DNA from: an uncultured Pelagibacteraceae bacterium
GTDB lineage: Bacteria > Pseudomonadota > Alphaproteobacteria > Pelagibacterales > Pelagibacteraceae
Direction of reading: 5' to 3'
NCBI GenBank assembly: GCA_902566315.1
Contig: CACFIL010000002.1
Coordinates: forward strand, 1-64,000
DNA length: 64,000 bases
The translations under genes and the position numbers were made by a program. The notes under the pieces were generated by a model, which saw only the letters and a list, made by a program, of their open reading frames with translations, was not told the DNA's origin and did no database searches. Positions within the stretch are counted from its first letter, which is position 1; every line of letters begins with the position of its first letter. Below are positions 47,741 through 63,705 of the stretch, in pieces.

Positions 47741-49963
47741 TTAGTTTACCAGAGGTTTACCAGTTTTCAATGTATGTTTAATTCTTTCTTGAGTTTTTTC
47801 TGTCTCAATTAGCTTCATAAATGCATCTAACTCTAATTTATACAAATCATCCTCTGATAAAGTTTTTTCTAAAGTAGTATCTCCACCACTTAAAACTTTT
47901 GCTAGCTCTTTTCCAACTTCCATACCATGATCAAGAATAATTTTTTCATTGTATAATTTTTCTAACATTTTTACCATTTTGTCATAAACACTTTTTCCAG
48001 AAAGTTTAAATGTACATTCATCTGGAGGAGAAAAATCTTTATTATTTTGAATTATCTCTTTAGAAACCTGTAATAGACTATTTCTACTCATTATTTTTTT
48101 ATCCTCTGGTCTTAAATATTTTAATGGTTCAGCTTCAATTGGTGATGTTGCAGTTTTAGCATATCCAATAATATCAAAAACTTTTAAAGGAGCATAATCA
48201 GGATCATTTTTAGCTTCTTCAGTTTGAGACCATCTCCAAAGCATTTCTTTACATCCTCCGCCTGCTGGAATTAATCCAACCATAGTCTCAACTAAGCCAA
48301 CTACAATATTGGTATGGGATGCAACGAAATTACTTTGACATAAAACCTCAAAACCACCACCCAATGCCAATCCTGATGGCGCTGATACAACTGGATATTT
48401 AGAATATTTTAAATGTTTACAGGTCTCTTGAAAATATTTAACAAACTCTTCAATAGATTTAAAATCTCCTTTGTCTGCAAAATTCATTGTGTAAGACAAA
48501 TTTACGCCTGCTGAAAATTGCATTGCCTCATTTATTATTATTAAAGGTTTGTCTGTTGCATTTTTTAAGCTATCCATTGAGTCATAATCTAAAGCATTAG
48601 CCTTAGTTGTGAATTCAACAATATTAAAATCATCAAATCTATAGGTTTCTGCAGAGTTATTTTTGTCTAATTTAGTTGCTCTAGGTTTTATTTTTCCTAA
48701 AGTTTCTAAATCTGTGTATTGTTGTCTTTCACCATAAAAGTTTTCGTCTTTGCTTTGTGATAAGTTTTCAAGAAACTTATTATTTTCAAATGTATCTATT
48801 CTTTCAAAAAAATCCTTAACACCAATTTCTTTTAACATTTCAAAAGGTCCCTTAGACCAGTTAAACCCTAGTCTCATTGCTTCATCGATGTCATTAAATT
48901 TATCTGTAATACCTGGAACTAAAGATGAAGCATATTTTATAATTTTTGAAATTACAGACCAAGCGTATTCACCATATTTATCTTTTCTGTTTATAAGACC
49001 AACAATATCCATTTTTTCTGATCCTAAATTGAACTTTTTAGATAGTGAATATTCACCTGTTTCTAAGTTTATACCCTCTAGAATTTTTTTGTTATCAGAC
49101 TTATTCATTCTATAGAAACCACCTTTTCCTTTTCTACCAGTGTACCCAGTTTCTATAAGTTTTTTAACTAATGGTATTTCTTTTGCTACAATTTGAAAGT
49201 CGTCAGTCTCTGGAAGTTCTTTTATAAAACTTTTTAAAACATCGGCCATCAAGTCAATTCCAATTAAATCATAGAGTCCAAATACACCTGTTTTAGGTAT
49301 TCCCATTGGTCTCCCAAAAACGGCGTCAGCTTCTTCAATTGTTAATTTCATTTTAAAAGCTTCAGTCATAGCCACCTGCATAGCATAGACACCAATTCTA
49401 TTTCCTAAAAATCCTGGGGTATCATTACAAATTAATGCTCCTTTTCCTAAATCTTTTTCACAAAAACTTTTAAGTGAATTTATTTGATCTAAATCATTAT
49501 TCTCATTTTTTACAATTTCTAACAAATCCATATATCTGACTGGATTAAAGAAGTGAGTTATACAAAAATCTTTTTTTTCTTCATCTGAAAGTTTTTCTGA
49601 AAGAACTTTAATTGGAATAGAGGATGTATTTGAAGAAACTATTGATCCTTTTTTTCTTTCTTTAAAAATTTTTTCATAAATATTATGTTTAATATCAATT
49701 CTCTCAACGACAGCTTCAACTATCCAGTCTGCTTCACCGACTTCATTAAAATTATCATTTATATTTCCAATATTAATATTATTTATTTTTGACTTATCTA
49801 TTAATAAAGGAGGTCTAGACTTTAAAATTCTTTCTCTAGCTTTTTCAGAAATTTCAGTGGTTAAGTCTAACAATGTTACTGGAACATTTGCATTACATAA
49901 TTGAGCAGCTATTCCACTACCCATTGTACCTGACCCTATAACTACTACTTTATTAATTTTCAT
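47741..49963 (-). CDS. 3-hydroxyacyl-CoA dehydrogenase/enoyl-CoA hydratase fusion, FadN-type order
   Basis: Bifunctional beta-oxidation protein, 740 residues. The N terminus is the dehydrogenase (VVVIGSGTMGSGIAAQLC, residues 6-23; FNPVRYMDLLEIV near 140; GFLGNRIGVYAMQ near 185). The crotonase domain is at the C terminus (NEAMQFSAGVNLSYTMNFAD near 493, APSGLALGGGFEVLCQSNFVASHTN near 535). In FadB/FadJ the hydratase comes first, so this resembles Bacillus FadN. The FadA-type thiolase at 62.6 kb is not adjacent. Confidence 0.88.
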   Translation of the reverse strand: MKINKVVVIGSGTMGSGIAAQLCNANVPVTLLDLTTEISEKARERILKSRPPLLIDKSKINNINIGNINDNFNEVGEADWIVEAVVERIDIKHNIYEKIFKERKKGSIVSSNTSSIPIKVLSEKLSDEEKKDFCITHFFNPVRYMDLLEIVKNENNDLDQINSLKSFCEKDLGKGALICNDTPGFLGNRIGVYAMQVAMTEAFKMKLTIEEADAVFGRPMGIPKTGVFGLYDLIGIDLMADVLKSFIKELPETDDFQIVAKEIPLVKKLIETGYTGRKGKGGFYRMNKSDNKKILEGINLETGEYSLSKKFNLGSEKMDIVGLINRKDKYGEYAWSVISKIIKYASSLVPGITDKFNDIDEAMRLGFNWSKGPFEMLKEIGVKDFFERIDTFENNKFLENLSQSKDENFYGERQQYTDLETLGKIKPRATKLDKNNSAETYRFDDFNIVEFTTKANALDYDSMDSLKNATDKPLIIINEAMQFSAGVNLSYTMNFADKGDFKSIEEFVKYFQETCKHLKYSKYPVVSAPSGLALGGGFEVLCQSNFVASHTNIVVGLVETMVGLIPAGGGCKEMLWRWSQTEEAKNDPDYAPLKVFDIIGYAKTATSPIEAEPLKYLRPEDKKIMSRNSLLQVSKEIIQNNKDFSPPDECTFKLSGKSVYDKMVKMLEKLYNEKIILDHGMEVGKELAKVLSGGDTTLEKTLSEDDLYKLELDAFMKLIETEKTQERIKHTLKTGKPLVN

Positions 49964-50654: not shown

Positions 50655-52682
50655 TTAATTAATCTGGTCTTTTTGTAATTCTTTTAATGGTATGTGGCAT
50701 CTGATAGAGTTTCCACTGTTAGTTATTTGCCATGGTGGTATCTCATTTTTACAAATATCACCTAATATTCTTGAACATCTCCCCTGAAAACTACACCCTT
50801 TTTGAGGTGGCTTTTCTTCTACGATATCTTCAGCAACTAATTTTGGTTTAATATCTGGATCTGGTTCTAACACCGCTCCTAATAAAACCTCTGTGTAAGG
50901 GTGTGATGGAAATTGATAAACATCATTTGATGGTCCCACTTCACACAATCTTCCTTGATAAAGAACAGCAACTCTATCACTTATAGCTCTTACGACAGCT
51001 AAATCATGTGAAACAAATATATATGTAGTCCCAAAATCTTCTTTAAGTTGTTGTAACAAATTTAATACGGCCGCCTGAACTGATACGTCTAACGCGGATG
51101 TTACTTCATCACATAATATTATATCTGGTTTAGCTGCAAAAGCTCTTGCAACCGCAACTCTCTGTTTTTCACCTCCAGATAATTGTCTAGGGTACCTAGA
51201 CATATAAAATTCACCCAGTCTTACTTTTTGCAATAGCTCTTTAATATTTGTTTTTAATTCTTCACCCTTTAAACCAAAATATAACTTTAATGGTTGTGCT
51301 ATTATTTCCTCAACAGTATGGTTTGGGTTTAAAGACTCATCTGGGTTTTGAAAAATTAATTGAATAATTCTTAAATCATTAGGATCTCTCTCTTTGAGGT
51401 CAGAAGATAAGTTTCTTTTTTGATCAAATTTTATTACTCCATCTTTGGTTCTGAGTAACCCAGCAATAGATTTGAGAATTGTTGATTTTCCACTACCTGA
51501 CTCTCCAACTAGAGCTATAGTTTCACCCTTCTTAATATTAATATTAATATCTTTAACGGTTGGGTTATCATCAGAAATTCTATTTAACACTTGATCTAAA
51601 AGATTTTGCTTAGCGTAACTTATTGAAACTTCTGAAATGTTTAATATTTCTTTATCCTGCAAACTCTTCTTAATTTTATTAACAGTTTGATTAACCTGAC
51701 TGTCATTCATTAAACTCTTATGATTAAAACATCTAACACTAGTGTTTAATTCTTCTAAGTACTCAAGTTGAGGAGAGTTACTTTTACATTTTTCTTCTGA
51801 AAAATCACACCTATCAAAGAAACTACAGCCTCTATGCATTGTTCCAGGTTGAGGTTGGCTACCAGGCATTGATTGTGGAAGTCCTGCAAGTGATAATTTT
51901 GGTATAGATTTAAGCAAACCATAGGTATACGGATGAATTGGTTTTTTAAGAATATCTCGAGAGGGCCCCTCTAAAACTATTTCACCAGAGTACATTACAA
52001 TAATACGATCACTTACTTGAGCTATTGCTCCTAAGTCATGACTTACATAAACCATTGATGTTCCTGTGTCTTTCGCAATGAAGTTAAGAAGTTCTAAAAC
52101 GTGAGCTTGTGTTGTTACGTCTAAGCCGGTTGTTGGCTCATCCAATAGTAGAAGGTCAGGGGTTCCCGCTAATGCCATAGCAACAGCAACTCTCTGTTGT
52201 TGTCCTCCTGAAAGTTCATGAGGATATCTTAGAGCAATTGTTTCAGGTGAGGGAAGTCTCACTTTATTTAACAATTCTGAAATTTTTTGTTCTCTTTCTT
52301 CCTCCTTTAAATCAGAATGCAGCTGTAATGCTTCATCAATTTGATAACCTATTTTTAAATTTGGTGTTAAAGCCTGTCCAGCATTTTGTGGTATCATTGC
52401 AATTTTTCTACCTCTGATTTTTTCCAAATCTCTATTTTTCATTTTTAAAAGATTTGAGGAATTAAATTCACATTCTCCACCAATAGTATAGAGACCATGT
52501 TTAACATACCCCATCATTGCTAGTGCGAGAGTACTTTTTCCAGATCCAGATTCTCCAACAATACCAACGGTTTCACCTTTTTTAATGTTTGTACTTATGT
52601 TTCTAAGTATTAAAATCTCTTCACCTTTTTTACTCTTAAATCCAATGGATAAATTTTTTACTTTTTGAATTATTTCAGTCAT
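50655..52682 (-). CDS. Fused peptide-type ABC transporter ATPase (DppD-DppF)
   Basis: Both ATPases of an oligopeptide/nickel-class importer in one 675-residue chain. First copy: Walker A GESGSGKSTLALA (about 43), signature LSGGQQQRVAVA, Walker B LLLLDEPTTGLD, then an oligo-HPY tail with Cys (GCSFFDRCDFSEEKC). Second copy: GESGSGKSTILKS (about 392), LSGGEKQRVAVA, IILCDEVTSALD, tail GCSFQGRCSRILGDIC. The Cys tails match those in Dpp/Opp ATPases that can carry a cluster. It follows the permease genes by 2 bases. Confidence 0.93.
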   Translation of the reverse strand: MTEIIQKVKNLSIGFKSKKGEEILILRNISTNIKKGETVGIVGESGSGKSTLALAMMGYVKHGLYTIGGECEFNSSNLLKMKNRDLEKIRGRKIAMIPQNAGQALTPNLKIGYQIDEALQLHSDLKEEEREQKISELLNKVRLPSPETIALRYPHELSGGQQQRVAVAMALAGTPDLLLLDEPTTGLDVTTQAHVLELLNFIAKDTGTSMVYVSHDLGAIAQVSDRIIVMYSGEIVLEGPSRDILKKPIHPYTYGLLKSIPKLSLAGLPQSMPGSQPQPGTMHRGCSFFDRCDFSEEKCKSNSPQLEYLEELNTSVRCFNHKSLMNDSQVNQTVNKIKKSLQDKEILNISEVSISYAKQNLLDQVLNRISDDNPTVKDININIKKGETIALVGESGSGKSTILKSIAGLLRTKDGVIKFDQKRNLSSDLKERDPNDLRIIQLIFQNPDESLNPNHTVEEIIAQPLKLYFGLKGEELKTNIKELLQKVRLGEFYMSRYPRQLSGGEKQRVAVARAFAAKPDIILCDEVTSALDVSVQAAVLNLLQQLKEDFGTTYIFVSHDLAVVRAISDRVAVLYQGRLCEVGPSNDVYQFPSHPYTEVLLGAVLEPDPDIKPKLVAEDIVEEKPPQKGCSFQGRCSRILGDICKNEIPPWQITNSGNSIRCHIPLKELQKDQIN

Positions 52683-52684
52683 TT

Positions 52685-53578
52685 TTAAACTGGAGCTTTT
52701 GTTGATCTATCTATACCTAAAGCTTTAGCAAAAGCATCAGCTGTCAAATTGATGCCAATTATTAAACTGCTCAAACCAACTATTGGAGCTATCACCGACC
52801 AATAAGCAAAAGACATTAAACCTCTGGCGTTTGATATCATCAGTCCCCAATCTGGAGTTGGAGGACTAACACCAAAACCTAGGAATGACAAAGAACTAAA
52901 GCCAAGTAGCATCCATGACCATCTCATTGCACCTTCCACTAAAATTGCATCTCTTACATTTGGAATTATCTCATTCCATATTATTGAAAAATTGCTGTGC
53001 CCTCTTGCTCTAGCAGATACAATAAAGTCTTTTGCAATAACATCGTGGGTTGCAGCTCTTGCTACTCTTACAATTCCCTTACCATAAAAGAAACCCAAGG
53101 CAGGTATTAATACTTCGGTTGATGTACCTAACAGAGATACAATTAACAACATTGCCAATATCCACGGAATAGATAAAAATGCATCAACTATTCTCATCAC
53201 TATATCGTCAGTTTTCCCACCAACTAGTCCACAAAAAATTCCTAATAGACCACCCCAAAGTAGTGCTATCAAAGATCCAAAGAAAGTAATTGTTAAAGCT
53301 GTTCTTCCACCTAAAATTGTTCTTGTAAAAACGTCCCTTCCAAGATCATCAGTTCCAAACCAATATTCAGCAGAAGGAGCCTGTAGCATTAAAGTTGGGT
53401 TTATCGCTTTAAAGTCATATGGCGCAATGTAAGGGCTAATAAATGCAAGAATTACGTGGAAAATCAATATACTTAAACCAATAAATCCTGACGGTCTTGA
53501 GGCCATTGTAATTATTATCTCAGAGACTTTTGCGAAATTACTTTTTTTTTCTTCCTGATAAATATTATCCAATTTCAT
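52685..53578 (-). CDS. Peptide-type ABC permease, DppC family
   Basis: Inner-membrane permease of 297 residues with about six helices. Its N-terminal PYIAPYDFKAINP and EYWFGTDDLGRDVFTRTILGGR (about residues 73-94) are the OppC/DppC hallmarks. The coupling loop is ISARARGHSNFSIIWNEIIPN-like (about 195-212). It is 1 base from DppB and 2 from the fused ATPase. It pairs with DppB to form the channel; substrate is set by the binding protein at 54.6-56.1 kb. Confidence 0.93.
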   Translation of the reverse strand: MKLDNIYQEEKKSNFAKVSEIIITMASRPSGFIGLSILIFHVILAFISPYIAPYDFKAINPTLMLQAPSAEYWFGTDDLGRDVFTRTILGGRTALTITFFGSLIALLWGGLLGIFCGLVGGKTDDIVMRIVDAFLSIPWILAMLLIVSLLGTSTEVLIPALGFFYGKGIVRVARAATHDVIAKDFIVSARARGHSNFSIIWNEIIPNVRDAILVEGAMRWSWMLLGFSSLSFLGFGVSPPTPDWGLMISNARGLMSFAYWSVIAPIVGLSSLIIGINLTADAFAKALGIDRSTKAPV

Positions 53579-53579
53579 A

Positions 53580-54536
53580 TTATTTTCTAATCTGTAACGT
53601 CTTTAATCTTGGATTAAGCATCAGTGTCATCAGATCTGCTAATAGATTTATACTAACATATATAGATGCAAGAATTATTGCTAAAGCTTGAACAGTAGGC
53701 AAATCTCTATTCGAAATAGACTCGATAACTAACCTTCCAAGACCAGGGTAATTGAATACAACCTCAGTTACAACCACGCCACCTAATAACCATGCAATTG
53801 TTAAAGCTACAACATTAATAGCCGGTAACAACGCATTTGGTAAAACATGTTTAAAAACCATTTTCCAATATGGAACGCCTTTTAAAATTGCCATTTGAAC
53901 ATATTCACTTGCCATAACTTGAATTACACTTGATCTTACCATCCTTGCCATGTGAGCTGTCATAATCATTGCAATAGCGATTACTGGTAAAATAATATTT
54001 GGTAATAGTTCAAAGAATGAAACATCAGTTGGAACAATAACAATCCCTGGTAACCACTCTAACCATATTGCAATTATTAAAATTAATAAAGTAGCACTAA
54101 TAAACTCTGGAATAGTCATAGCAAAAATAGTTACTGTTGAAATTGCAACGTCAGGTAATTTGTCTCTCCAAAGAGCAGTAACAATTCCTAATATCAAAGC
54201 AATCGGTATACCAATAAAAATGGCAGCTGATGCTAGAACTAATGAATTTTTAATTCGTGGTCCTAGAACCTCTTTAATTGGCATTTCTCCGCTTAAAGAA
54301 TAACCAAAGTCTCCTTGAATAGCATTTACGGCCCAAGATACATATCTCTCATATGCAGGAACGTTCAAACCTAATCTTCTATAACAAGCTTCTAATTGCT
54401 CCCCGAATGCTTGTCTCTCAAGATATGTTGTACACGCGTCACCAGGTAAAATCTCAGTTCCAACAAAAGTGATTAAAGATACTATAAATAAAGTTATTAA
54501 GCCTAATAGGATTCTTTTTATAATTAAAAAAAGCAT
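53580..54536 (-). CDS. Peptide-type ABC permease, DppB family
   Basis: Partner permease of 318 residues with about six membrane helices. It starts directly in a first helix (MLFLIIKRILLGLITLFIVSLITF). GDFGYSLSGEMPIKEVLGPRI (about 75-95) and YVQMAILKGVPYWKMVFKHVLPNA (about 208-231) match DppB/OppB. The late FNYPGLGRLVIESISNRDLP is typical. It is separated from the binding-protein gene by 83 bases with a strong hairpin. Confidence 0.93.
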   Translation of the reverse strand: MLFLIIKRILLGLITLFIVSLITFVGTEILPGDACTTYLERQAFGEQLEACYRRLGLNVPAYERYVSWAVNAIQGDFGYSLSGEMPIKEVLGPRIKNSLVLASAAIFIGIPIALILGIVTALWRDKLPDVAISTVTIFAMTIPEFISATLLILIIAIWLEWLPGIVIVPTDVSFFELLPNIILPVIAIAMIMTAHMARMVRSSVIQVMASEYVQMAILKGVPYWKMVFKHVLPNALLPAINVVALTIAWLLGGVVVTEVVFNYPGLGRLVIESISNRDLPTVQALAIILASIYVSINLLADLMTLMLNPRLKTLQIRK

Positions 54537-54619: not shown

Positions 54620-56107
54620 TTAGTCAACACTTACTGTGTGCCATCTTATCGAAAAATACTCGACTTCGTCGAGATTTTTCACTTTAGAAGATGTGACAAC
54701 CAATCTAGATACATGGTAAGGAATCATAGTTCCAGACTCTTCCCATAGTGTTTTTTGAGCATTGATATATGCTGCTTTTCTTTTACTGAAATTTAACTCA
54801 CCTCTAGCATCAGCTAAATTCTTGTCAAAAGAAGCACTTTTGTAGAAAGACTCATTCCATTTTGCTTCACTATGATAAGCTTCGTGCAAGATACTGTCTG
54901 CAGGTCTCTCATTCCAACGTGTCATTGCTACTGGCTTTTTCATCCAAGTTTCATTCCAATAACTTTTTGAAGGTGTCATTTGAATATCCGCTCTTATGTT
55001 AGCTTTAGCAAATTGTTGTTGTAATACTTCAGCAATAGTTGGCCATGTTGGTTCTTTTGTAGATACGTGAATTGTGAACTCAATACCATCTGGATAACCT
55101 GCCTCTGCAAGTAATTTTTTAGCAGTAGCATGTTGTGGCGGGCACTTCTTTTTCATTCTGTATTGATCCGAAGGTGCAACTGGAGTATCACAAGATACTG
55201 TTGCTGCTCCTGCCATAACAAGATCAACTAATTCTTGCCTATCTACAGCTATTCTAACAGCCTTTCTTACTCTTGGATCATCAAATGGTGCAACATCCGT
55301 TCTCATTACCATACCTCTCCAATTTCCTGTAGGTATCACTGATACATTGAACTTTGAATTACCATCAAATATTTTTTTCTGATTGAATGGAACATATCTA
55401 TTCATATCAATCTGTCCAGTAAGTAGAGCTTGAATTCTAGCTTGACCATCTGGAATAGCTATTACGTGAACTTCAGAAAGTTTAGGTGCTCCTTCCCAAT
55501 AATCTGGGTTTGCTTTTAGAATTGTTGTTCCTTCAGCATCAAACTTTTCTACTATAAAAGGTCCAGTTCCAATACCTGTTTTTCCAATAGTATCACCTGA
55601 TCCATTAGGTATCATTCTTAGTCTATAATCAGTTAGTAAAAGTGGAAAATCTGCAAAAGATGTATTCAACTTCATTTTAACTGTGTGTGAGTCTACAATC
55701 TCTATATCTGTTACTGCACTCATACTTTTCTTTGCAGGCGAACCAATTTCAGGATCTTTAACTCTCATCAAAGAATATTTTACATCTTCTGCGTCAAAAT
55801 CAGATCCGTCATGGAATTTAACACCTTTTCTTAAGTTAAAAGTCCATTCCGTAGCATCTGCATTTCCTGACCAGTCAGTTGCAAGCTCAGGAGATGTTAC
55901 CCCTTTAAGATCTTTTCTTACAAGACGGTTCTGTGTCATTATTACTACCTGAAACAGTCGTCCCTTAGTAATTGCGTCTAAATTTGTATCTTTTCCAAAA
56001 CCAACATCATGAGATAATTTAAAAACACCGCTTGATGCATTGGCAAAAGAAAATGTTACTAACAGTGATACCAATGAAACTGATATCAATTTAAAAATGT
56101 TTTTCAT
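54620..56107 (-). CDS. ABC transporter substrate-binding protein, family 5
   Basis: Periplasmic peptide/nickel/opine-type binding protein, 495 residues. A signal peptide (MKNIFKLISVSLVSLLVTFSFANA) precedes the mature part. LATDWSGNADATEWTFNLRKGVKFHDG (about 72-98) is the family-5 signature, and DDPRVRKAVRIAVDRQELVDLVM (about 277) a second conserved block. It heads the importer operon on minus and is divergent from the seven-gene catabolic operon. Ligand class is broad (dipeptides, glutathione, opines, other), and cannot be read. Confidence 0.92.
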   Translation of the reverse strand: MKNIFKLISVSLVSLLVTFSFANASSGVFKLSHDVGFGKDTNLDAITKGRLFQVVIMTQNRLVRKDLKGVTSPELATDWSGNADATEWTFNLRKGVKFHDGSDFDAEDVKYSLMRVKDPEIGSPAKKSMSAVTDIEIVDSHTVKMKLNTSFADFPLLLTDYRLRMIPNGSGDTIGKTGIGTGPFIVEKFDAEGTTILKANPDYWEGAPKLSEVHVIAIPDGQARIQALLTGQIDMNRYVPFNQKKIFDGNSKFNVSVIPTGNWRGMVMRTDVAPFDDPRVRKAVRIAVDRQELVDLVMAGAATVSCDTPVAPSDQYRMKKKCPPQHATAKKLLAEAGYPDGIEFTIHVSTKEPTWPTIAEVLQQQFAKANIRADIQMTPSKSYWNETWMKKPVAMTRWNERPADSILHEAYHSEAKWNESFYKSASFDKNLADARGELNFSKRKAAYINAQKTLWEESGTMIPYHVSRLVVTSSKVKNLDEVEYFSIRWHTVSVD

Positions 56108-56223: not shown

Positions 56224-57453
56224 ATGAAAGATTTAATCAATAAATACAGGTTTACTGTAAAGCCTGTTAACCTTGAAAATTCAAACTCTTTGGAGCTTGC
56301 AAGATCAATTCAAGTTCATCCATTAACTTACCAGGAGCTACCCTATGACCCAGAGTATTCTAATTATGCTGGAAGATTAACACTAGAGAAATTATCTAAT
56401 GTAAGTCCTGAGGAAATGTATTGGAAAGGGAGGCGGGAGATAATATTTAGACATACTGGTGAACATCCATTTGAAATATCTGGCCCAGACTCACTTAAGT
56501 TATTACAAAAAATATTCCCAAGAGATGTATCAAAAATATCGAAAGGAAGATGCTCTTACCAATTCGCTTGCTATCACGATGGAGGAATGATTACTGACGG
56601 AGTTCTATTAAAACTTGAAGAAGATAAATATTGGTTTGCACAAGCAGATGGGGATCTTTTTTCTTGGTATAAAGCTCACTCTAAAAATATGAATGTTGAA
56701 ATAAAAGATCCTGAAGTATGGGTAAGTCAAATTCAAGGCCCATTTTCAATGAAACTACTTGAAAATATAGCTGAGGATTTTTCAGAGAATGATTGGAAGT
56801 ACTTTGATTGGAAAGAATTACAAATCTTAGATCAAAAAGTAATTGTAAGCCGAAGTGGTTTTACAAATGAGTTAGGTTGGGAAATTTATTTCAGACCCGA
56901 AAATGAAACTGAAAAAATTGGAGATTACATTCTTGAGGAAGGAAAAAAATTAGGTATGATTTTAGTTGCCACACCAGGTTTTAGATGTAGAAGAATTGAG
57001 GCTGGTTTGCTTTCTGCAGGACAAGATTTTACAAAAAAAACAAATCCATTTTCAGTCGGTCTAGGGCGTTTTATAAATTTTGATAAAGAAGATTTTATTG
57101 GAAAAGAAGCTCTCATGAAATCAGATAAAAAATGTAAGACTTGGGGAATTAGAGTTGCAGAGGGAACTGCTATTAAAGGTGAAGGTATTAAAATAAATGA
57201 AAAAAATATTGGTAAAATAACTTCTAGTACTTGGTCGCCATATCAAATTTGTGGAGTTGGTATTGTGCACCTCTATAATAATGAGAATGGACCAGGAGAT
57301 GTTGTTGATGTTAAATGCACTGATGGAAAAGTACATAAAGGAGAAATCTGTAAATTGCCAATGTATGATGCAAAAGGAGAAATAGTTAGAGGTCTAAATA
57401 GAAATATTCCTGATGCGCCAAATCCTTGGCCTGGTATTAAAACCACAAATTAA
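56224..57453 (+). CDS. GcvT-fold aminomethyltransferase/demethylase-like protein
   Basis: Tetrahydrofolate-dependent demethylase-type protein, 409 residues. The GcvT pattern is clear: FRHTGEHPFEISGPDSLKLLQKIFPRDVSKISKGRCSYQFAC (begins near 76), VSRSGFTNELGWEIYF (about 219-234), RCRRIEAGLLSAGQDF (about 257-272) and DFIGKEAL. These place the conserved folate region and Glu/Asp sites, but it is not an ordinary glycine-cleavage T protein: no GcvH/GcvP is near. It is first of the seven-gene operon. The substrate could be a methylated amino or sulfonium compound. Confidence 0.8.
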   Translation: MKDLINKYRFTVKPVNLENSNSLELARSIQVHPLTYQELPYDPEYSNYAGRLTLEKLSNVSPEEMYWKGRREIIFRHTGEHPFEISGPDSLKLLQKIFPRDVSKISKGRCSYQFACYHDGGMITDGVLLKLEEDKYWFAQADGDLFSWYKAHSKNMNVEIKDPEVWVSQIQGPFSMKLLENIAEDFSENDWKYFDWKELQILDQKVIVSRSGFTNELGWEIYFRPENETEKIGDYILEEGKKLGMILVATPGFRCRRIEAGLLSAGQDFTKKTNPFSVGLGRFINFDKEDFIGKEALMKSDKKCKTWGIRVAEGTAIKGEGIKINEKNIGKITSSTWSPYQICGVGIVHLYNNENGPGDVVDVKCTDGKVHKGEICKLPMYDAKGEIVRGLNRNIPDAPNPWPGIKTTN

Positions 57454-57466
57454 AAAAATTTATTCA

Positions 57467-58159
57467 GTGAAGGCTAAAAAACAAATAATAGCAGTTGGAG
57501 GTGGTGGTTTCACTCATAATGAGGATGGTGATTTAGATCAATTTTTTTTAGATCAAATAGGAAAAAAAAACTGCTCTATAGGATTTTTGCCAACTGCTAG
57601 TAATGATGACGAAAAAAAAACTGAGCTATTCTATAAAAGATTTAAAAATACTAACTTTAAAGTTTCTCACTTCAACCTTGTCTCCAGTGTTAAGGGTTTT
57701 GAAAACTGGATTTCAAATTTAGATGCTATTTATATTGGTGGAGGAAATACTAAATTCATGCTCGACTTATGGAAAAGAAATAATTTAATTAATATTATTA
57801 AAGAAGTTTATAACTCAGGAATAATTGTTTCTGGTGTAAGTGCTGGAGCTGCATGTTGGTTTGATTATTTTCTCACAGACTCAGATGGACCTGGCTTTAA
57901 ACCGTTAAGTGGTGTTGGACTTATATCTGGAAGTTTTACTCCACATTATTCAGATGTAAAAAGAGCTTATAAATTCAGAGAAAATATAAATAATAAAATT
58001 TTACCAAGTGGTATAGCTGTGGATGATGGAGTTGCAGTACTTTTTATTGACGGAAAACCAACAGAGGTTTATTCTTCCAGAGAAAGTCATAATGCTTATT
58101 TTGTTGATCAAAATCAACAAATTAATTTAAAAGAATATATTAAAGTTAATAATGAGTGA
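57467..58159 (+). CDS. pepE: Peptidase E-like (S51) protein
   Basis: Serine peptidase of the alpha-aspartyl dipeptidase/cyanophycinase class. From the GTG at 57467 it is 230 residues, the normal PepE length; the longer frame from ATG 57413 would overlap the previous gene by 41 bases with unrelated residues. The nucleophile lies in VSGVSAGAACWF (Ser about 124), GGGNTKFM is the oxyanion-side glycine loop, and PHYSD carries the likely His. It may cut an N-terminal Asp or other acyl peptide brought in by the adjacent importer. The other genes are not peptidases. Confidence 0.85.
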   Translation: MKAKKQIIAVGGGGFTHNEDGDLDQFFLDQIGKKNCSIGFLPTASNDDEKKTELFYKRFKNTNFKVSHFNLVSSVKGFENWISNLDAIYIGGGNTKFMLDLWKRNNLINIIKEVYNSGIIVSGVSAGAACWFDYFLTDSDGPGFKPLSGVGLISGSFTPHYSDVKRAYKFRENINNKILPSGIAVDDGVAVLFIDGKPTEVYSSRESHNAYFVDQNQQINLKEYIKVNNE

Positions 58160-59315
58160 TAATATTTTACCAAGTCAAAAAATTTTTAGTATTAAAGACG
58201 CAAGGGAACTGTCACGTAAACGTCTACCTAAATTAGTTTTTGATTTTATTGATGGTGCATCTGGAGACGAAAAATTAGCAGAAATAAATAGCAGAGCTTT
58301 AGATCAAATTAGACTTGAACCTAAAGTTTTAAGAAATGTTGAGAAAAGATCTCTTAAGAAAAAAGTATTAGGTTATGAATTTGATTTTCCATTTGGTTTT
58401 GCTCCGATGGGTATGACTAATTTATCATGGCCTGGGGCAGACTCTATGTTAGCAGCAGAAAGTGCAAGAAATAATATACCTACATGTGTTTCTATGGCGT
58501 CTACAACAACTTTAGAAAAAATGTATGAACTATCAGAAGGTCATTCATGGATGCAACTATATATATTTCAGGATGAAAGTTTTGTCATGGAACTTTTAGA
58601 TAGAGCTAAGAATACAGGTTACGAAGTTGCAATATTAACTGTGGATGTTCCTGTGCTATCCAGGAGAACTAGAGATGATAAAAATGGTTTCTCCTACCCT
58701 TTCAAGATCGGTCCAAAACAATTTTTTGATTTTGCAACTCACCCTACTTGGTCTCTTTCTACCTTGCTGAGCGGCATTCCTAAACCAATGAACTATGTAA
58801 CATCAAAAAGCGGAGATGGTATTTTTAAAAGAAAAGAAAGTAGAGGCTCTACAGATTGGAATACTCTTAAAAGAGTGAGAGATAAATGGAAAGGTAAACT
58901 TATAATTAAAGGAGTAATGTCTCCTGACGATGCAGTAAAAATTAAGGAAGCTGGTGCTGATGCAATACAAGTTTCAAATCATGGAGGCAGACAATTAGAT
59001 AGCGCTACGGCAGCAATAAATATACTTCCAGTAATCAGAAAATCAGTAGGAAATGATTTTCCTTTAATCTTTGATAGTGGAATAAGAAGTGGAAGTGATA
59101 TCGTGAGAGCGCTTGCATTTGGCGCGGATTATGCAATGATTGGTAGACCAGTAATGTACGCAATGGGAGCTGATGGAAGAAAAGGATTAAGGAGAATTGT
59201 GGAAATAATTAAAGAAGAGGCCAGCACGACACTCGGGTTAGTAGGATTAAATGATATTAATGATGTAACTTCTAATATAGTAATAGATAGTACTGTAAAT
59301 AAGGTAGATTACTAA
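58152..59315 (+). CDS. FMN-dependent 2-hydroxy-acid oxidase/dehydrogenase (LldD/GOX family)
   Basis: TIM-barrel flavoenzyme oxidising an L-2-hydroxy acid (lactate, glycolate, mandelate class) to a 2-oxo acid, 387 residues. FDFIDGASGDEKL (about 30), FGFAPMGMTN, LTVDVPVLSRRTRDDKNGF (about 169), KGVMSPDDAVKIKEAGADAIQVSNHGGRQLD (about 253-283) with the catalytic His in SNHGGRQLD, and FDSGIRSGSDIVRALAFGAD are the family blocks. It overlaps peptidase E by 8 bases and abuts the TPP enzyme. Membrane association, as in LldD, is not evident. Confidence 0.9.
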   Translation: MSDNILPSQKIFSIKDARELSRKRLPKLVFDFIDGASGDEKLAEINSRALDQIRLEPKVLRNVEKRSLKKKVLGYEFDFPFGFAPMGMTNLSWPGADSMLAAESARNNIPTCVSMASTTTLEKMYELSEGHSWMQLYIFQDESFVMELLDRAKNTGYEVAILTVDVPVLSRRTRDDKNGFSYPFKIGPKQFFDFATHPTWSLSTLLSGIPKPMNYVTSKSGDGIFKRKESRGSTDWNTLKRVRDKWKGKLIIKGVMSPDDAVKIKEAGADAIQVSNHGGRQLDSATAAINILPVIRKSVGNDFPLIFDSGIRSGSDIVRALAFGADYAMIGRPVMYAMGADGRKGLRRIVEIIKEEASTTLGLVGLNDINDVTSNIVIDSTVNKVDY

Positions 59316-61058
59316 ATGAGCGAAAATAAAATTAGAGGTGGAGCATTACTTGCAAGGGCTCTAAAAGACAAAGGAATTGGCAAAGTTTTCACTCTTTCGG
59401 GGGGTTTTTGTAATCCAGCAATTGAAGGTTTTGCTGAATGCCAAATTGAAGTAATAAACACTCCTCATGAGCAGATTGCAGGTCATTTAGCAGACGGCAA
59501 TACAAGAATTACTCGTAAACCATCAGTATGTTTAGTTGGACCCGAAGGATTTACAAATGCAGTCCCTTCTATGATGGAAGCTTGGGGTGAGAGAAGTCCA
59601 ATTATTTACATTACAGGATCTAGCAGTCTTAAAAGACAAGGCTCAGGTGGTTTTAAAGAAATTGACGATGTTTCAATTGCAGCCCCCTTAACTAAATATA
59701 GCGCAAGTATTACAGATGGAACTCGAATAAGAGAATTTGTAGACAAAGCATATCATATTGCAACTAACGGATACCCAGGTGCTGTACATCTTAGTCTCCC
59801 TGTTGATATTATGTTTTCATCTTTTGCAGAGGAAGTTGGTTTAAGGGAAAGACCGTATTCTCAAAAAGCAAAACCTATATCTAAAGCGTGGCCAGATCCA
59901 AATTCACTCTCAGAAGTCTTAGAACTTGCTTGTAATTCAAAAAAACCAGTTATTATTGGTGGACACGGTGTTTGGTGGTCACATTCGGAAAAAAATCTTG
60001 AAGCAGCTGGTAATAATTTAAATATTCCGATTTTTAATGTTCCGTATCATCAAAAATTATTAGGAGAAGAGGCTAACGCTTACATGGGGTTAGCTGATAT
60101 ACATCAATACCCTCCTTCAGAATTTGCATTACACAATTCAGATCTGGTTCTTGTCGTTGGAGCACGATTAGATAATCAATTAAATTTTGGAAATCCACCT
60201 TTTATACCAGAGTCAACAAAATTAGTTTGTGTAAATGGTTCACATGAAGAATTAGAACTTAATAGAGCTGCAGATTTAAGTTTGCTAAGTGATCCTGGTG
60301 TTTTTTTAGATACATTATCCAACTTAAAAAAAAATAATAAATGGTCTTTAGATACAAAGTGGTTTCAAGAGAATAAAAAAAAGAAGAAAGAGTGGGTAGA
60401 TAAATCTTTGAAAGAATTAGAAATTGAAGCTGAAGCATCTAAAAAAAATGGAGGAAAAATTCACCCTCTACAACTTTCATTGGATGTTCAAGATGCAATG
60501 AGTGAAAATGATTGGCTTGTTATCGATGGAGGAAATACTCATTTTTGGTCAGAAATTGCAATCAACATCGCAGGTGCCAAAGGGAAAAAATTAAAAGGAA
60601 TATTGCATCCTGGAACTTTTAGTATGTTAGGTGTTGGAGTTTCATTTGCTCTATCTGCTAAAAATCATAATCCAGATTCAAATGTAGTTCTGATAAGTGG
60701 TGATGGTGCCTTTTTATCAGGAGGTATGTCTATTGAAAGTGTATTTTATGAGAAAAAACCTATTACTGTTGTAATTGATAATAACGGGGGTCTTGCTTCA
60801 ATTGGTCAGCAACAAGAGAGGTTATTTAAAAGTGGAAAAAGTGTGGGAACTGACTTCCGCGATATACCATTTCACAAGATATTTGAGGGTTTTGGAGGAC
60901 ATGGAGAATTAGTTAATAAAAGAGAAGAGCTAGGTCCAGCACTTAAAAGAGCTATGGATAGTGGAAAACCTGCGTGCGTGAACGTTAAAGCAAAACCTGT
61001 ATTAAGCCCAATAGTCTCTGCAGTTGCAAGTAAAAGAGAGAAATCATCAATAGAATAA
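59316..61058 (+). CDS. TPP-dependent enzyme, acetolactate-synthase-like
   Basis: Three-domain thiamine diphosphate enzyme of 580 residues. The cofactor-activating Glu52 is in NTPHEQIAGHLADG, and the C-terminal diphosphate motif runs GDGAFLSGGMSIES...VVIDNNGG (about 460-490). It acts on 2-oxo acids (decarboxylation or carboligation). It starts directly at the end of the hydroxy-acid oxidase gene, so it probably uses that enzyme's 2-oxo product. It is not obviously IlvB: no IlvN follows, and the N-terminal GGFCNPAIEG and LPVDIMF stretches are unusual. Glyoxylate carboligase and oxalyl-CoA-type activities remain possible. Confidence 0.82.
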   Translation: MSENKIRGGALLARALKDKGIGKVFTLSGGFCNPAIEGFAECQIEVINTPHEQIAGHLADGNTRITRKPSVCLVGPEGFTNAVPSMMEAWGERSPIIYITGSSSLKRQGSGGFKEIDDVSIAAPLTKYSASITDGTRIREFVDKAYHIATNGYPGAVHLSLPVDIMFSSFAEEVGLRERPYSQKAKPISKAWPDPNSLSEVLELACNSKKPVIIGGHGVWWSHSEKNLEAAGNNLNIPIFNVPYHQKLLGEEANAYMGLADIHQYPPSEFALHNSDLVLVVGARLDNQLNFGNPPFIPESTKLVCVNGSHEELELNRAADLSLLSDPGVFLDTLSNLKKNNKWSLDTKWFQENKKKKKEWVDKSLKELEIEAEASKKNGGKIHPLQLSLDVQDAMSENDWLVIDGGNTHFWSEIAINIAGAKGKKLKGILHPGTFSMLGVGVSFALSAKNHNPDSNVVLISGDGAFLSGGMSIESVFYEKKPITVVIDNNGGLASIGQQQERLFKSGKSVGTDFRDIPFHKIFEGFGGHGELVNKREELGPALKRAMDSGKPACVNVKAKPVLSPIVSAVASKREKSSIE

Positions 61059-61060
61059 TT

Positions 61061-61396
61061 GTGGCAACTTTCTCTTCTCACTTATTGGATGCAACAAATG
61101 GCTCGCACGCTGCAAATGTTGATGTAATTATTTATCAAATTAATGAAAATGGAGAAAAGAAAGTTTTCTGCGAAACTAAATCTGATGAAGGAGGACGAAT
61201 ACTGCAAGAATTTGAATTAAGTAAAGACGACTGCAATTGTGAGTATGAAATGGTTTGTAAAACTGGCAATTATTTTTCAGAAAAAAAAATAGTTTCAGAA
61301 ATTAATATTAAATTTCAAATGGAAGATCAAAATAAAAAATATCATATTCCAATTATAATCTCTAAAAATAGCTACACAGTTTGGTGGTCTAAATAA
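61061..61396 (+). CDS. Transthyretin-like / 5-hydroxyisourate hydrolase-like protein with altered C terminus
   Basis: A 111-residue transthyretin-fold protein, starting GTG at 61061, 2 bases after the TPP gene. The N-terminal SSHLLDATNG gives His7, SDEGGRI gives Arg46, and KYHIPIIIS gives His95. These are the three positions expected for 5-hydroxyisourate hydrolase. The C-terminal family ending YSTYRGS is replaced by YTVWWSK. Full urate-pathway partners are absent. It may hydrolyse another cyclic amide or lactam-like compound made in this pathway, or be a non-enzymatic binding protein. Confidence 0.72.
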   Translation: MATFSSHLLDATNGSHAANVDVIIYQINENGEKKVFCETKSDEGGRILQEFELSKDDCNCEYEMVCKTGNYFSEKKIVSEINIKFQMEDQNKKYHIPIIISKNSYTVWWSK

Positions 61397-61397
61397 A

Positions 61398-62564
61398 ATG
61401 AGTAAAGAAAATTTAATTCCACAAAAAAATATAAAATTAAATATGTCTAGACGTATAAGACGAACTCCATTTACTAATAAAGTAGAGGAATGTGGAGTGT
61501 CTGATTTTACTGTTGTTAATCACATGCTACTACCAAAAGGTTTTAAAAATACTGTAGAAGAAGACTACTGGCATTTAAGAGAGCAGGTTCAAGTGTGGGA
61601 TGTGTCTTGCCAGAGACAAGTACAAATTAAAGGACCTGATGCTGAAAAATTAGTGCAAAAAATGACACCAAGATCCATAAAAAAAATGGAGACCGGTAAA
61701 TGTTTTTATATTCCAATAATTGACGACACAGCTGGTATGATTAATGATCCAGTTTTATTAAAACTAGACGATGATATGTTTTGGATTTCTATTGCAGATT
61801 CTGATATTTTACTTTGGGCAAAAGGAATTGCTTTAGGATCAAAATTAAATGTAGAAATTATTGAACCAGATGTATATCCACTAGCTGTTCAAGGTCCGAA
61901 ATCTGAGGATCTACTAATTTCAATTTTTGGAGAGGATATTAAAAAGTTAAGATTTTTTAATTTTAAAGTGTTTGATTTTTTAGGAACTAAACAAATTATT
62001 GCACGATCTGGATACAGTAAACAAGATGGTTTTGAAATATACTTTAAAGGATTTGAAACACATTTTAATGAGATAGAACTTGGAGAAAAACTTTGGGATA
62101 CTATATGGGAGAGCGGACAAAAATTTAATATTTCTCCAGGATGTCCAAATTTAATTGATAGAATTGAGGCTGGATTAATGTCTTATGGAAATGACTTTAC
62201 AAGAGAAAATAATCCTTTGGAGTGTAATCTTGAAAAATACTGTAAACAAGAGGATGATCATGACTTTATAGGTAAAGAGGCTTTAAGAAAGATACAATCT
62301 GATGGAATTGTACAAAGAATGAGAGGAATTTTGTTTGATGGAGATCCGTGTAAACCAACCGGTGTGCCTTTGCCAGTATACTCAAAAGATAATACAAAAA
62401 TTGGGCAAATTGCATCTGGAATATATTCTCCAGGATTTAGAAAGAATATAGGGCTTTCTATGATTTTAAAAGATTATTGGGAAATTGGAAATGAGGTTTT
62501 TGTCAATACTTTCAATGGAAAAAATAGAAAAGGCATTATAACTTCTTTACCATTCCCAGATTAA
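61398..62564 (+). CDS. dmdA: DMSP demethylase (DmdA)-like protein
   Basis: Tetrahydrofolate-dependent demethylase, 388 residues. SRRIRRTPFTNKVEECGV (about 17-34), VQVWDVSCQRQVQIKGP, GKCFYIPIIDDTAGMINDPVLLKLDDDMFWISIADSD and ISPGCPNLIDRIEAGLMSYGNDF match the dimethylsulfoniopropionate demethylase DmdA closely in layout, rather than GcvT. DmdA from SAR11 is about 370 residues. It moves one methyl from DMSP to THF, leaving methylmercaptopropionate. Its place inside this operon, rather than with dmdBC, allows that it is a divergent paralog with another methylated substrate. Confidence 0.8.
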   Translation: MSKENLIPQKNIKLNMSRRIRRTPFTNKVEECGVSDFTVVNHMLLPKGFKNTVEEDYWHLREQVQVWDVSCQRQVQIKGPDAEKLVQKMTPRSIKKMETGKCFYIPIIDDTAGMINDPVLLKLDDDMFWISIADSDILLWAKGIALGSKLNVEIIEPDVYPLAVQGPKSEDLLISIFGEDIKKLRFFNFKVFDFLGTKQIIARSGYSKQDGFEIYFKGFETHFNEIELGEKLWDTIWESGQKFNISPGCPNLIDRIEAGLMSYGNDFTRENNPLECNLEKYCKQEDDHDFIGKEALRKIQSDGIVQRMRGILFDGDPCKPTGVPLPVYSKDNTKIGQIASGIYSPGFRKNIGLSMILKDYWEIGNEVFVNTFNGKNRKGIITSLPFPD

Positions 62565-62580
62565 CCTTATATTGATTGAT

Positions 62581-63705
62581 ATGTTCAAACCTGTAATCGC
62601 TGGCTTCTCAAGATCGCCTTTCACAATGGCGAGAAAAGGTGCGCTCGTAGATACAAAGCCAGTAAATTTACTAGCGGAAGTGATTAAAAATTTAGTTGCG
62701 AAATCCAATGTTAAAAAAGAGGATATTGAGGATATTGTTGTTGGTTGTGCATTTCAAACTGGAGAGCAGTCATTTAATATTGGAAAGTTAACAACATTTT
62801 TAACTAATATGGATGTTAAAACTTCTGGAATGACAGTTGATAGATGGTGTGGTTCCTCCATGGAAGCTATTCATATTGCTGCAGGTAAAATTTCGTTAGG
62901 AGCAGGAAAAGTATTTATATGTGGAGGAGTTGAAAGTATGACCAGAGTTAATACAGGTTTTGATCCAATACCTTATCCTGAAAATAAGAATGATAATCCT
63001 CATGTTTATTTTTCAATGGGCACTACTGCAGAAAATGTTGCCAAAAAATATAATATTTCAAGAAATGAACAACAGGAATTTGCAATCTCAAGTCATCAAA
63101 AAGCACATGAAGCACAAACAAAAGGTAATTTTAAAAACGAAATTGTATCTATCGGAGATTGTGATACCGATGGAAATATTAGACCAGGCAGCACAATGGA
63201 AAAGTTGGATGGATTAAAACTCGCTTTCGATGAAAATGGTACTGTTACAGCAGCCACTTCATCACCTTTAACCGATGGTGCAGCTGCAACATTAATTTGT
63301 GAAGAAAGTTATGCAAAAGAAAATAATTTAAATATTTTGGGAAGAATTGTATCTACTGCAGTGCAAGGTTGTGACCCTGACTATATGGGATTAGGTCCAA
63401 TAGGAGCATCAAAAAAAGCTTTGGAAAGAGCTAAATTGACAGCAGATAAAATTGATATTGTTGAATTGAATGAGGCTTTTGCGTCGCAATCCTTAGCATG
63501 TATTAAAGATTTAGGTATTGATAAAGATAAAGTTAATTTAGATGGTGGAGCACTAGCCCTTGGACATCCTCTTGGAGCAACAGGCGCAAGAATTACAGGC
63601 AAAGCTGCTGAATTACTTAAGAGAGAAAATAAAAAATATGCACTTTCAACTCAGTGTATTGGTTTGGGTATGGGAATTGCTACAGTGATTGAATCTGTAA
63701 ACTAA
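62581..63705 (+). CDS. Thiolase (acetyl-CoA acyltransferase)
   Basis: Condensing/cleaving thiolase, 374 residues from the ATG at 62581. A TTG three codons earlier is possible but less likely. The catalytic Cys90 is in VDRWCGSSMEAIHIA, the His motif in GHPLGATGARI (about 325) and the second Cys in STQCIGLGMGIA (about 362). Length is slightly short of the usual 390. It ends the seven-gene plus-strand operon, 16 bases after the DmdA-like stop. It could provide acetyl-CoA from 3-oxoacyl-CoA products of this route, or serve general beta-oxidation with the FadN-type protein. Confidence 0.9.
   Translation: MFKPVIAGFSRSPFTMARKGALVDTKPVNLLAEVIKNLVAKSNVKKEDIEDIVVGCAFQTGEQSFNIGKLTTFLTNMDVKTSGMTVDRWCGSSMEAIHIAAGKISLGAGKVFICGGVESMTRVNTGFDPIPYPENKNDNPHVYFSMGTTAENVAKKYNISRNEQQEFAISSHQKAHEAQTKGNFKNEIVSIGDCDTDGNIRPGSTMEKLDGLKLAFDENGTVTAATSSPLTDGAAATLICEESYAKENNLNILGRIVSTAVQGCDPDYMGLGPIGASKKALERAKLTADKIDIVELNEAFASQSLACIKDLGIDKDKVNLDGGALALGHPLGATGARITGKAAELLKRENKKYALSTQCIGLGMGIATVIESVN

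Follow-up and report, generated by a model that had tools for sequence, protein, structure and literature searches.

Gene Content of the Locus

This report concerns a gene cluster in a 64,000-nucleotide stretch of DNA from an uncultured Pelagibacteraceae (SAR11) bacterium, hereafter called the window, whose positions supply the coordinates used below. We examined the locus that runs from a FadB-like gene to a thiolase gene; at its thiolase end, at positions 56224-63705, seven open reading frames (ORFs) follow one another on the plus strand. A preliminary description had read these as a seven-gene operon facing an ATP-binding cassette (ABC) importer and serving the breakdown of one imported, methylated 2-hydroxy acid. 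The ORF list bears out the named order, strand, and tight spacing of the seven genes, which overlap or are separated by gaps of no more than 16 bases. An overlap of 41 bases between the GcvT-like and S51 genes depends on the start codon chosen, and a GTG start at 57467 turns it into a 13-base gap. The genes of the locus are as follows.

47741..49963, minus strand: FadB-like protein, left boundary of the presence/absence locus, found with or without the module
50035-50598: BioY-family gene, between FadB and the importer
50655..52682, minus strand: fused double ATPase of a family-5 (oligopeptide-type) ABC importer (PF00005 twice, PF08352 oligo_HPY)
52685..53578, minus strand: importer permease, OppC-like (PF00528, PF12911)
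53580..54536, minus strand: importer permease, OppB-like (PF00528, PF19300)
54620..56107, minus strand: family-5 solute-binding protein (PF00496, 286 bits)
56224..57453, plus strand: GcvT-like folate-binding protein (PF01571/PF08669)
57413..58159, likely start GTG 57467, plus strand: S51-family hydrolase (PF03575, 130.7 bits)
58152..59315, plus strand: flavin mononucleotide (FMN)-dependent 2-hydroxy-acid oxidase/dehydrogenase of the LldD/mandelate dehydrogenase type (PF01070, 397 bits)
59316..61058, plus strand: thiamine diphosphate (ThDP)-dependent enzyme, distinct subfamily within the 2-hydroxyacyl-CoA lyase (HACL)/oxalyl-CoA decarboxylase/acetolactate synthase superfamily (PF02776/00205/02775)
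61061..61396, plus strand: transthyretin (TTR)/5-hydroxyisourate hydrolase (HIUase)-fold protein, distinct subfamily, ending in W[W]S rather than YRGS; presumed hydrolase (PF00576, 72 bits)
61398..62564, plus strand: DmdA-like tetrahydrofolate (THF)-dependent methyltransferase, predicted (NF009133, 531 bits against a cut-off of 410)
62572..63705, plus strand: thiolase, bystander and partner of FadB, which it adjoins in four module-less genomes

Pfam assigns to the plus-strand row, in order, GCV_T, Peptidase_S51, FMN_dh, TPP enzyme, Transthyretin, GCV_T, and Thiolase. On the opposite strand, all parts of a family-5 peptide-type importer are present, namely SBP_bac_5, two BPD_transp_1 permeases, and one double ABC ATPase with oligo_HPY. 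Curated NCBIfam cut-offs are passed by only two of the seven plus-strand proteins, the DmdA-like protein and the thiolase (the latter at the level of a general subfamily). The other five score below the cut-offs of the named families that they resemble.

An Importer and Six Enzyme Genes Occupy the Site Between fadB and Thiolase

We compared the locus across 101 genomes, namely the window's own and 100 relatives. Of these, 15 encode the ThDP enzyme, 15 the solute-binding protein, 19 the thiolase, and 49 FadB. Thirteen genomes, the window's included, carry both the ThDP enzyme and the solute-binding protein, and the four that carry only one of them are contig-end cases: the ThDP gene lies at a contig end in G005 and G017, and the module is cut in G009 and G031. 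Within this set the ThDP enzyme is confined to the window's genus, where 15 of 61 genomes have it; all 40 genomes of the other family lack it.

Among the 19 genomes with the thiolase, 14 carry the ThDP enzyme, G009 has the cut module, and G001, G006, G038, and G041 are module-less. In these four the thiolase and FadB genes stand adjacent and divergent, 96-129 bp apart, with neither importer nor module between them; at the same place the window holds the importer and six further genes, about 12.6 kb including the BioY gene. A thiolase that adjoins FadB even where the module is absent is a bystander and lies outside the module. The gene row originally described thus stands, but a single functional unit of seven does not. 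Instead, the comparison indicates that the real unit consists of the importer (four genes) and six enzyme genes, forming a presence/absence island, probably catabolic, between fadB and thiolase in SAR11. The empty and occupied sites may reflect gain or loss.

Several neighboring genes were considered as pathway members and rejected. FadB is found in 49 of the 101 genomes, compared with 15 that have the ThDP enzyme. The aldehyde dehydrogenase and agmatinase genes form the same aldehyde dehydrogenase-agmatinase-FadB row in the module-less genome G041 (L201). An arginine-transaminase-like reading was built on these three genes and was dropped because they are not members.

The BioY-family gene between FadB and the importer is present in the window and, among the matches listed, in 5 of 18 named SAR11 loci. 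Beyond the thiolase, the window's contig carries a minus-strand row (64564-70148, or L016 564-6148) with ABC importer genes (the ATPase with TOBE_2), an M24 creatinase-type peptidase, and an Amdase-family protein. This row is probably a separate unit, because in the four module-less genomes the thiolase-FadB pair is likewise followed by ABC-transporter genes whose sizes and sequence starts match those beyond the window's thiolase. Plasmid records hold no close copy of the module (three ThDP-enzyme records, the best at 28% identity, and seven TTR records, six of them annotated uraH).

A Core of Four Genes Recurs in Other Bacterial Lineages

An alignment of the ThDP enzyme was scanned against named genomes, yielding at least 56 loci whose neighboring genes were identified by translated search. 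The 56 listed loci, labeled here by their record titles, comprise 18 from SAR11 (“Pelagibacteraceae”), 14 single-cell records named “uncultured Alphaproteobacteria,” and 24 others that include SAR116, Planktomarina, Rhodobacteraceae, Gammaproteobacteria, Thioglobus, Acidiferrobacteraceae, Granulosicoccaceae, a deltaproteobacterium, and two Chloroflexi bins. Counts of loci below refer to this list. The relatives of the ThDP enzyme in these loci have 60-98% identity. Their genes are adjoined by LldD in 55 of the 56 loci (L061 being the exception) and, among the 54 loci that can be assessed because L083 and L084 end inside the ThDP gene, by the TTR gene in 52 and by the DmdA-like gene in 49. The order LldD-ThDP-TTR-DmdA is kept wherever these genes are present, except that LldD lies on the opposite strand in L080. 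This adjacency exceeds chance. In one SAR11 locus (L018, genome G054) LldD is split into two ORFs, which suggests a frameshift or an assembly error.

The ThDP enzyme is rare. It was found in 6 of 386 genomes drawn evenly from the window's class and in 2 of 397 drawn from the phylum, with the window's genome included in both counts. TTR-family proteins were found by a TTR profile (A2) in 109 genomes of the class draw of the same size. Six places there stand out with 115.9-170.5 bits, whereas none of the others listed exceeds 82.5. These six high-scoring places lie in exactly the six ThDP-positive genomes. At least one second, lower-scoring TTR homologue lies elsewhere in five of these six, the window's genome being the exception.

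The expectation that all seven plus-strand genes are conserved together with the importer thus holds for the unit, which is accompanied by a related importer in SAR11 and SAR116, but not for the thiolase. Homologues of the fused ATPase adjoin the module in both groups, and the solute-binding protein, whose best solved relatives are YliB and AgaA, shows 55-58% identity between the window's copy and those of the SAR116 loci. A family-5 importer also lies near the core in the 14-record group (13 with enough flanking sequence) and in Planktomarina, but it is more distantly related, with a binding protein of about 28-33% identity. With the window's thiolase as the query, no match was found within 11 kb of the ThDP gene in the 38 non-SAR11 loci (the 14 “uncultured Alphaproteobacteria” and the 24 others), an absence that carries little weight for the six loci shorter than 8 kb. 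One genome, G443 (L124), has a thiolase homologue of 36% identity about 6 kb from the module.

The two remaining enzyme genes of the unit are shared more narrowly. The GcvT-like gene is common to SAR11 and to 13 of the 14 “uncultured Alphaproteobacteria” loci, where a homologue of 64-66% identity lies upstream of LldD and is itself preceded by a homocysteine S-methyltransferase-family gene. The S51 hydrolase gene is common to 17 SAR11 and 4 SAR116 loci, and its product falls far below the curated scores for dipeptidase E (40.4 against 156 bits) and cyanophycinase (36.9 against 126.6 bits). An extra minus-strand ORF of 184-242 amino acids lies between the GcvT-like and S51 genes in L043, L044, L045, and L081, and the copy in L045 resembles amino-acid solute-binding proteins.

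The DmdA-Like Protein Compared With Canonical DmdA Groups

The DmdA-like protein belongs to the same family as the dimethylsulfoniopropionate (DMSP) demethylase DmdA, represented by the P. ubique enzyme (3tfh) and by the roseobacter dmdA-acuI type, and methyl transfer to THF would be expected of it. With 531 bits it exceeds the cut-off of 410 set for the DMSP demethylase equivalog NF009133, and another module protein (L132 1501-2604) reaches 633 bits. Because the NCBIfam model accepts them, module proteins can be counted as DmdA, and automatic annotation and dmdA surveys may do so.

In other respects the module protein differs from DmdA. It is 47% identical to 3tfh and on average 49% identical to the sampled dmdA-acuI-type group, and it is encoded within a different set of genes. 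In a tree of 73 rows, the module proteins fall on one side and both canonical DmdA lines on the other, with weak branch support (87/55) and no usable outgroup. Moreover, the changes Y29F, Y32V, and E63Q, at positions shared by both canonical groups, set the module proteins apart. Many other SAR11 genomes encode a DmdA of the canonical SAR11 type, about 49% identical to the DmdA-like protein, and so do several module-bearing genomes at a place away from the module, G004, G005, G047, and G054 among them.

We considered two residue-based arguments about function and rejected both. The first concerns W171, a key DMSP residue of DmdA according to the accessible portion of a published study (PMC7487153), which by our own mapping corresponds to W197 of 3tfh. 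This position holds Tyr in 45 of 49 module proteins, Phe in 4, and Trp in none. However, loss of this Trp is not proof against DMSP demethylase activity, and the residue does not discriminate, because Tyr is also present in the DmdA proteins of L127, L128, L129, and L136, each of which is followed by an acrylyl-CoA reductase gene in what the available text of one report gives as the known dmdA-acuI arrangement (PMC5395565). The second concerns the four class-specific changes (Y29F, Y32V, E63Q, and I336L). By the same test the dmdA-acuI-type group has 7 such sites and SAR11 DmdA has 10. Since similar numbers of sites distinguish one canonical group from the other, the four changes do not settle function. 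The sequences therefore neither show nor exclude DMSP as the substrate of the DmdA-like protein.

A survey of SAR116 bacteria reports dmdA in one subclade only, as far as its accessible sections state (PMC8547437). In a deltaproteobacterial bin, a DddP-like M24 protein (410 bits against a cut-off of 600) is encoded beside the module (L070 1275-2522).

The Transthyretin-Fold Protein Lacks the HIUase C-Terminal Motif

The TTR protein shares its fold family with HIUase (UraH/PucM), and the HIUase active-site residues His, Arg, and His are kept in all 47 aligned module proteins. In contrast, the C-terminal YRGS tetrapeptide is altered, with Trp in place of Tyr in 47 of 47 and in place of Arg in 45 of 47. 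The alignment left out six loci, two of which (L070 and L073) were unreadable; the four readable ones have the same Trp in place of the YRGS Tyr, and the protein of genome G292 ends in WLSS. Of 24 lower-scoring TTR homologues fetched from the genome sample, 22 were readable, and all 22 end in YRGS. The window's protein also fails to reach the curated HIUase score, with 72.8 bits where 87.45 would be needed. The module TTR proteins constitute a distinct subfamily.

The accessible portions of three studies describe a C-terminal YRGS with its active-site Tyr in HIUase (PMC8272043, PMC4324301, PMC3646786). In one, the tetrapeptide and its Tyr lie in the active site, where Tyr forms hydrogen bonds to substrate ring nitrogens in docking (PMC8272043). 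In another, rapid hydrolysis did not occur with the variants H6A, H95A, and Y108F (PMC4324301); by our own reading, Y108 may be the YRGS Tyr. Because this Tyr is replaced by Trp, the module TTR protein should not act on 5-hydroxyisourate as HIUase normally does. A pocket containing two tryptophans would be suited to a group that is methylated or cationic.

There is precedent for an HIUase-family enzyme that acts on a methylated substrate. TmuH, a hydrolase of the C-8 oxidation pathway for caffeine, is such an enzyme, and works with a monooxygenase and an OHCU-decarboxylase. The module TTR protein may be comparable to TmuH in this respect, but these partner enzymes were not recognized near the module.

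The FMN and ThDP Enzymes Score Below Named-Family Cut-Offs

The catalytic residues Y137, D165, R172, K253, H277, and R280 of the oxidase are kept in all 54 sequences compared. M86, where mandelate dehydrogenase has Thr, is present in 53 of 54 (with one gap). At the Tyr position of mandelate dehydrogenase that we take to bind substrate, the 54 oxidases have Phe (45), Tyr (4), Ala (3), Cys (1), or a gap (1), and Phe was accordingly rejected as a rule for this LldD family. Among solved structures the oxidase is matched best, after tandem lactate oxidase chains, by (S)-mandelate dehydrogenase. Scores for LldD L-lactate dehydrogenase are well below the curated values (279.7 against 376 and 234.5 against 550 bits).

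Among solved structures, the ThDP enzyme is nearest to those of the 2-hydroxyacyl-CoA lyase/oxalyl-CoA decarboxylase type. Its curated scores are likewise low for acetolactate synthase (277.4 against 587 bits), 2-hydroxyacyl-CoA lyase (243.8 against 600), and oxalyl-CoA decarboxylase (211.8 against 557). Two motifs recur across the 56 loci, FTL[SA]GGFCNP in 54 ORFs and PHEQxAGHLAD in 45. The preliminary description had allowed that these two proteins might prove to be a generic glycolate oxidase and acetolactate synthase, but their scores, far below curated cut-offs, argue otherwise.

The mandelate pathway offers a similar pairing, in which the FMN-dependent mandelate dehydrogenase MdlB operates with the ThDP-dependent benzoylformate decarboxylase MdlC. 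The module resembles this pair in that an FMN 2-hydroxy-acid dehydrogenase gene with (S)-mandelate dehydrogenase as its best solved relative after lactate oxidase adjoins a gene for a ThDP enzyme. It differs in adding an importer, a TTR-fold protein, and demethylases, and in its ThDP subfamily.

Accessory Genes Near the Core

In some lineages, genes near the core point to an acid that is under specific control. A D-2-hydroxyacid dehydrogenase gene adjoins the core in L073, L083, and L084, and an Ldh_2 gene does so in L064 and its near-identical relative L124. Tripartite ATP-independent periplasmic (TRAP) transporter genes occur near the core in L062, L078, L083, L086, and L124, and a LysR regulator gene in 9 of the 24 other loci.

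Additional genes relate to methyl transfer. An MTTB gene lies between the S51 and LldD genes in L063, L123, and L124 (SAR116-type) and about 7 kb upstream in L066. The homocysteine S-methyltransferase-family gene is beside the core in L080 as well as in the 13 alphaproteobacterial loci. A copy-number control, covering MTTB and PF02574 in three genomes, found that the single PF02574 match in G244 (E <= 1e-10) is the module-adjacent gene, and that MTTB is present in 7 copies in G292 (~2.75 Mb) and 4 in G443 (~2.59 Mb). Other neighbors are GbcA-like Rieske proteins far below their family cut-off (L066 and L080), a DMGDH-type protein (L070), an old yellow enzyme (OYE)-type flavoprotein (L067), and, directly 3′ of DmdA in L061, a weak MetF-like match (25.8 bits, where the cut-off is 293.7). 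Amide-type hydrolases vary by lineage, from S51 to CN_hydrolase with a gamma-glutamyltransferase-like protein (L080) and isochorismatase with DMFA2_C (L075).

Marine glycine betaine demethylation, as described in the accessible parts of two reports, proceeds via MtgBCD (PMC12478193) or BHMT/DMGDH (PMC3160333). Its MTTB, homocysteine methyltransferase-family, and DMGDH-like components have counterparts adjoining the core in some lineages, whereas LldD, ThDP, and TTR enzymes are not named in those parts.

Possible Pathways and Substrates

From the observed gene content, co-conservation, empty sites, and conserved catalytic residues, we infer the reactions, their order, and the substrate as follows. 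We give about even chances to the proposal that the importer and six enzymes form one island for degrading a methylated substrate that carries at least two heteroatom-bound methyl groups and has a 2-hydroxy-acid skeleton or is a precursor of one. The methyl groups are most likely on a quaternary ammonium or sulfonium center, and the substrate is probably held in an amide-type conjugate. The family-5 importer would take up this substrate, and the core compound would be freed by the S51 hydrolase, which other lineages lack or replace. The FMN enzyme would then oxidize the 2-hydroxy acid to a 2-oxo acid, the ThDP enzyme would decarboxylate it or cleave a carbon–carbon bond, the TTR-fold enzyme would hydrolyze a ring or an amide, and the DmdA-like and GcvT-like proteins would pass methyl groups to THF. 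An imported, methylated 2-hydroxy acid, as first proposed, fits because the core is co-conserved, the oxidase residues are kept, and genes for 2-hydroxy-acid dehydrogenases and additional methyl-transfer enzymes adjoin it in some lineages; the thiolase as a member and the specific route to DMSP, discussed below, are not supported.

More tentatively, the cluster may encode an undescribed pathway with a new TTR-fold hydrolase that uses paired Trp residues to hold a methylated (cationic) substrate, together with a DmdA lineage that does not act on DMSP, such that similarity-based dmdA surveys would mix two activities. No paper on this gene set was found in the openly licensed literature.

Several observations weigh against a methylated 2-hydroxy acid as the substrate. 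The DmdA-like gene is missing beside the core in L068, L072, L078, L080, and L086, and the TTR gene in L068 and L072; therefore demethylation is not obligatory with LldD-ThDP. A free carboxylate is not certain because Phe commonly replaces the substrate-binding Tyr of the oxidase. Which methyl-transfer, Rieske, and amidase genes accompany the core depends on the lineage, some of these accessory genes lie several kilobases away, and as clues to the substrate they are only suggestive. Purine-type neighbors point to purines or ureides rather than to onium compounds alone: adenosine deaminase and methylthioinosine phosphorylase genes lie upstream of LldD-ThDP in a Chloroflexi bin (L072 4756-7981), xanthine-dehydrogenase-like subunits are encoded at least ~5.7 kb downstream of the ThDP gene in a Rhodobacteraceae bin (L078 17404-21064), and a guanine-deaminase-type amidohydrolase gene is near the core in L073.

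These neighbors would be explained if the TTR protein opens an N-methylated ring, LldD oxidizes an acid of the (methyl)ureidoglycolate type, the oxalyl-CoA-decarboxylase-like ThDP enzyme decarboxylates the product, and an imide-type N-methyl group passes to THF. The intact His/Arg/His of the TTR fold is consistent with such a route, as are a RutB/biuret-hydrolase-like isochorismatase with DMFA2_C beside the core in L075, isochorismatase homologues in L076 and L079, and the relationship of Ldh_2 in L064/L124 to ureidoglycolate dehydrogenase. We nevertheless regard a methylated ureide or purine as unlikely. The Tyr of the HIUase motif is absent from the module protein, and five module-bearing genomes have a second, lower-scoring TTR homologue elsewhere. 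No purine-ring oxidase was recognized among the annotated neighbors of SAR11 and SAR116 modules, although no search dedicated to such an oxidase was made, and the MTTB, GbcA-like Rieske, and homocysteine methyltransferase neighbors fit onium compounds better.

The specific candidate named in the preliminary description was 4-dimethylsulfonio-2-hydroxybutyrate (DMSHB), which LldD would oxidize after import and the ThDP enzyme would decarboxylate toward DMSP (with an aldehyde dehydrogenase completing the step), whereupon a true DmdA would demethylate the product. The acceptance of the DmdA-like protein by the DMSP demethylase model, and its Tyr in common with dmdA-acuI proteins of other Alphaproteobacteria, are in keeping with this route. 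According to the accessible text of one study, DMSHB may be prominent in the sea, and its decarboxylation step is still largely unassigned (PMC11306096); the latter makes the route worth testing. However, it assigns no role to the peptide-type importer, to the S51 hydrolase, or to the TTR protein. In addition, the DmdA-like protein is separated from both canonical groups in the weakly supported tree and by Y29F, Y32V, and E63Q, and a canonical SAR11-type DmdA is encoded elsewhere in several module-bearing genomes. This route is not supported, and we judge it improbable.

Guanidino, mycosporine, homarine, and opine compounds were also considered, but no sequence evidence separates them, and the openly licensed literature gave no mycosporine paper and no lead on homarine. 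Finally, it is very unlikely that a generic 2-hydroxy-acid oxidase, an acetolactate-synthase-like enzyme, and salvage demethylases were merely juxtaposed by streamlining of the compact SAR11 genome: the thiolase illustrates that adjacency alone can mislead, but the same gene order in other classes and larger genomes, the one-to-one co-occurrence of ThDP and TTR proteins in 386 genomes, and the failure of all but DmdA and thiolase among the seven to pass a curated NCBIfam cut-off already disfavor this view.

Implications for Methylated-Compound Use in the Ocean

A large share of the turnover of methylated organic matter in the ocean is credited to SAR11, SAR116, and marine Gammaproteobacteria, for which the compounds used are partly established. 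A recurring cluster of six enzymes and an importer in SAR11, with counterparts in several other bacterial groups, looks like a pathway for the use of one such compound. It also provides a testable handle, with a solute-binding protein for ligand screening and four core enzymes for assay. The TTR member would add a further activity to a family whose established roles lie chiefly in the degradation of urate and the transport of hormones. If the DmdA-like protein is inactive on DMSP, then homology-based dmdA counts include an unrelated pathway; if it is active, then the unit reveals a DMSP-linked route that has yet to be described.

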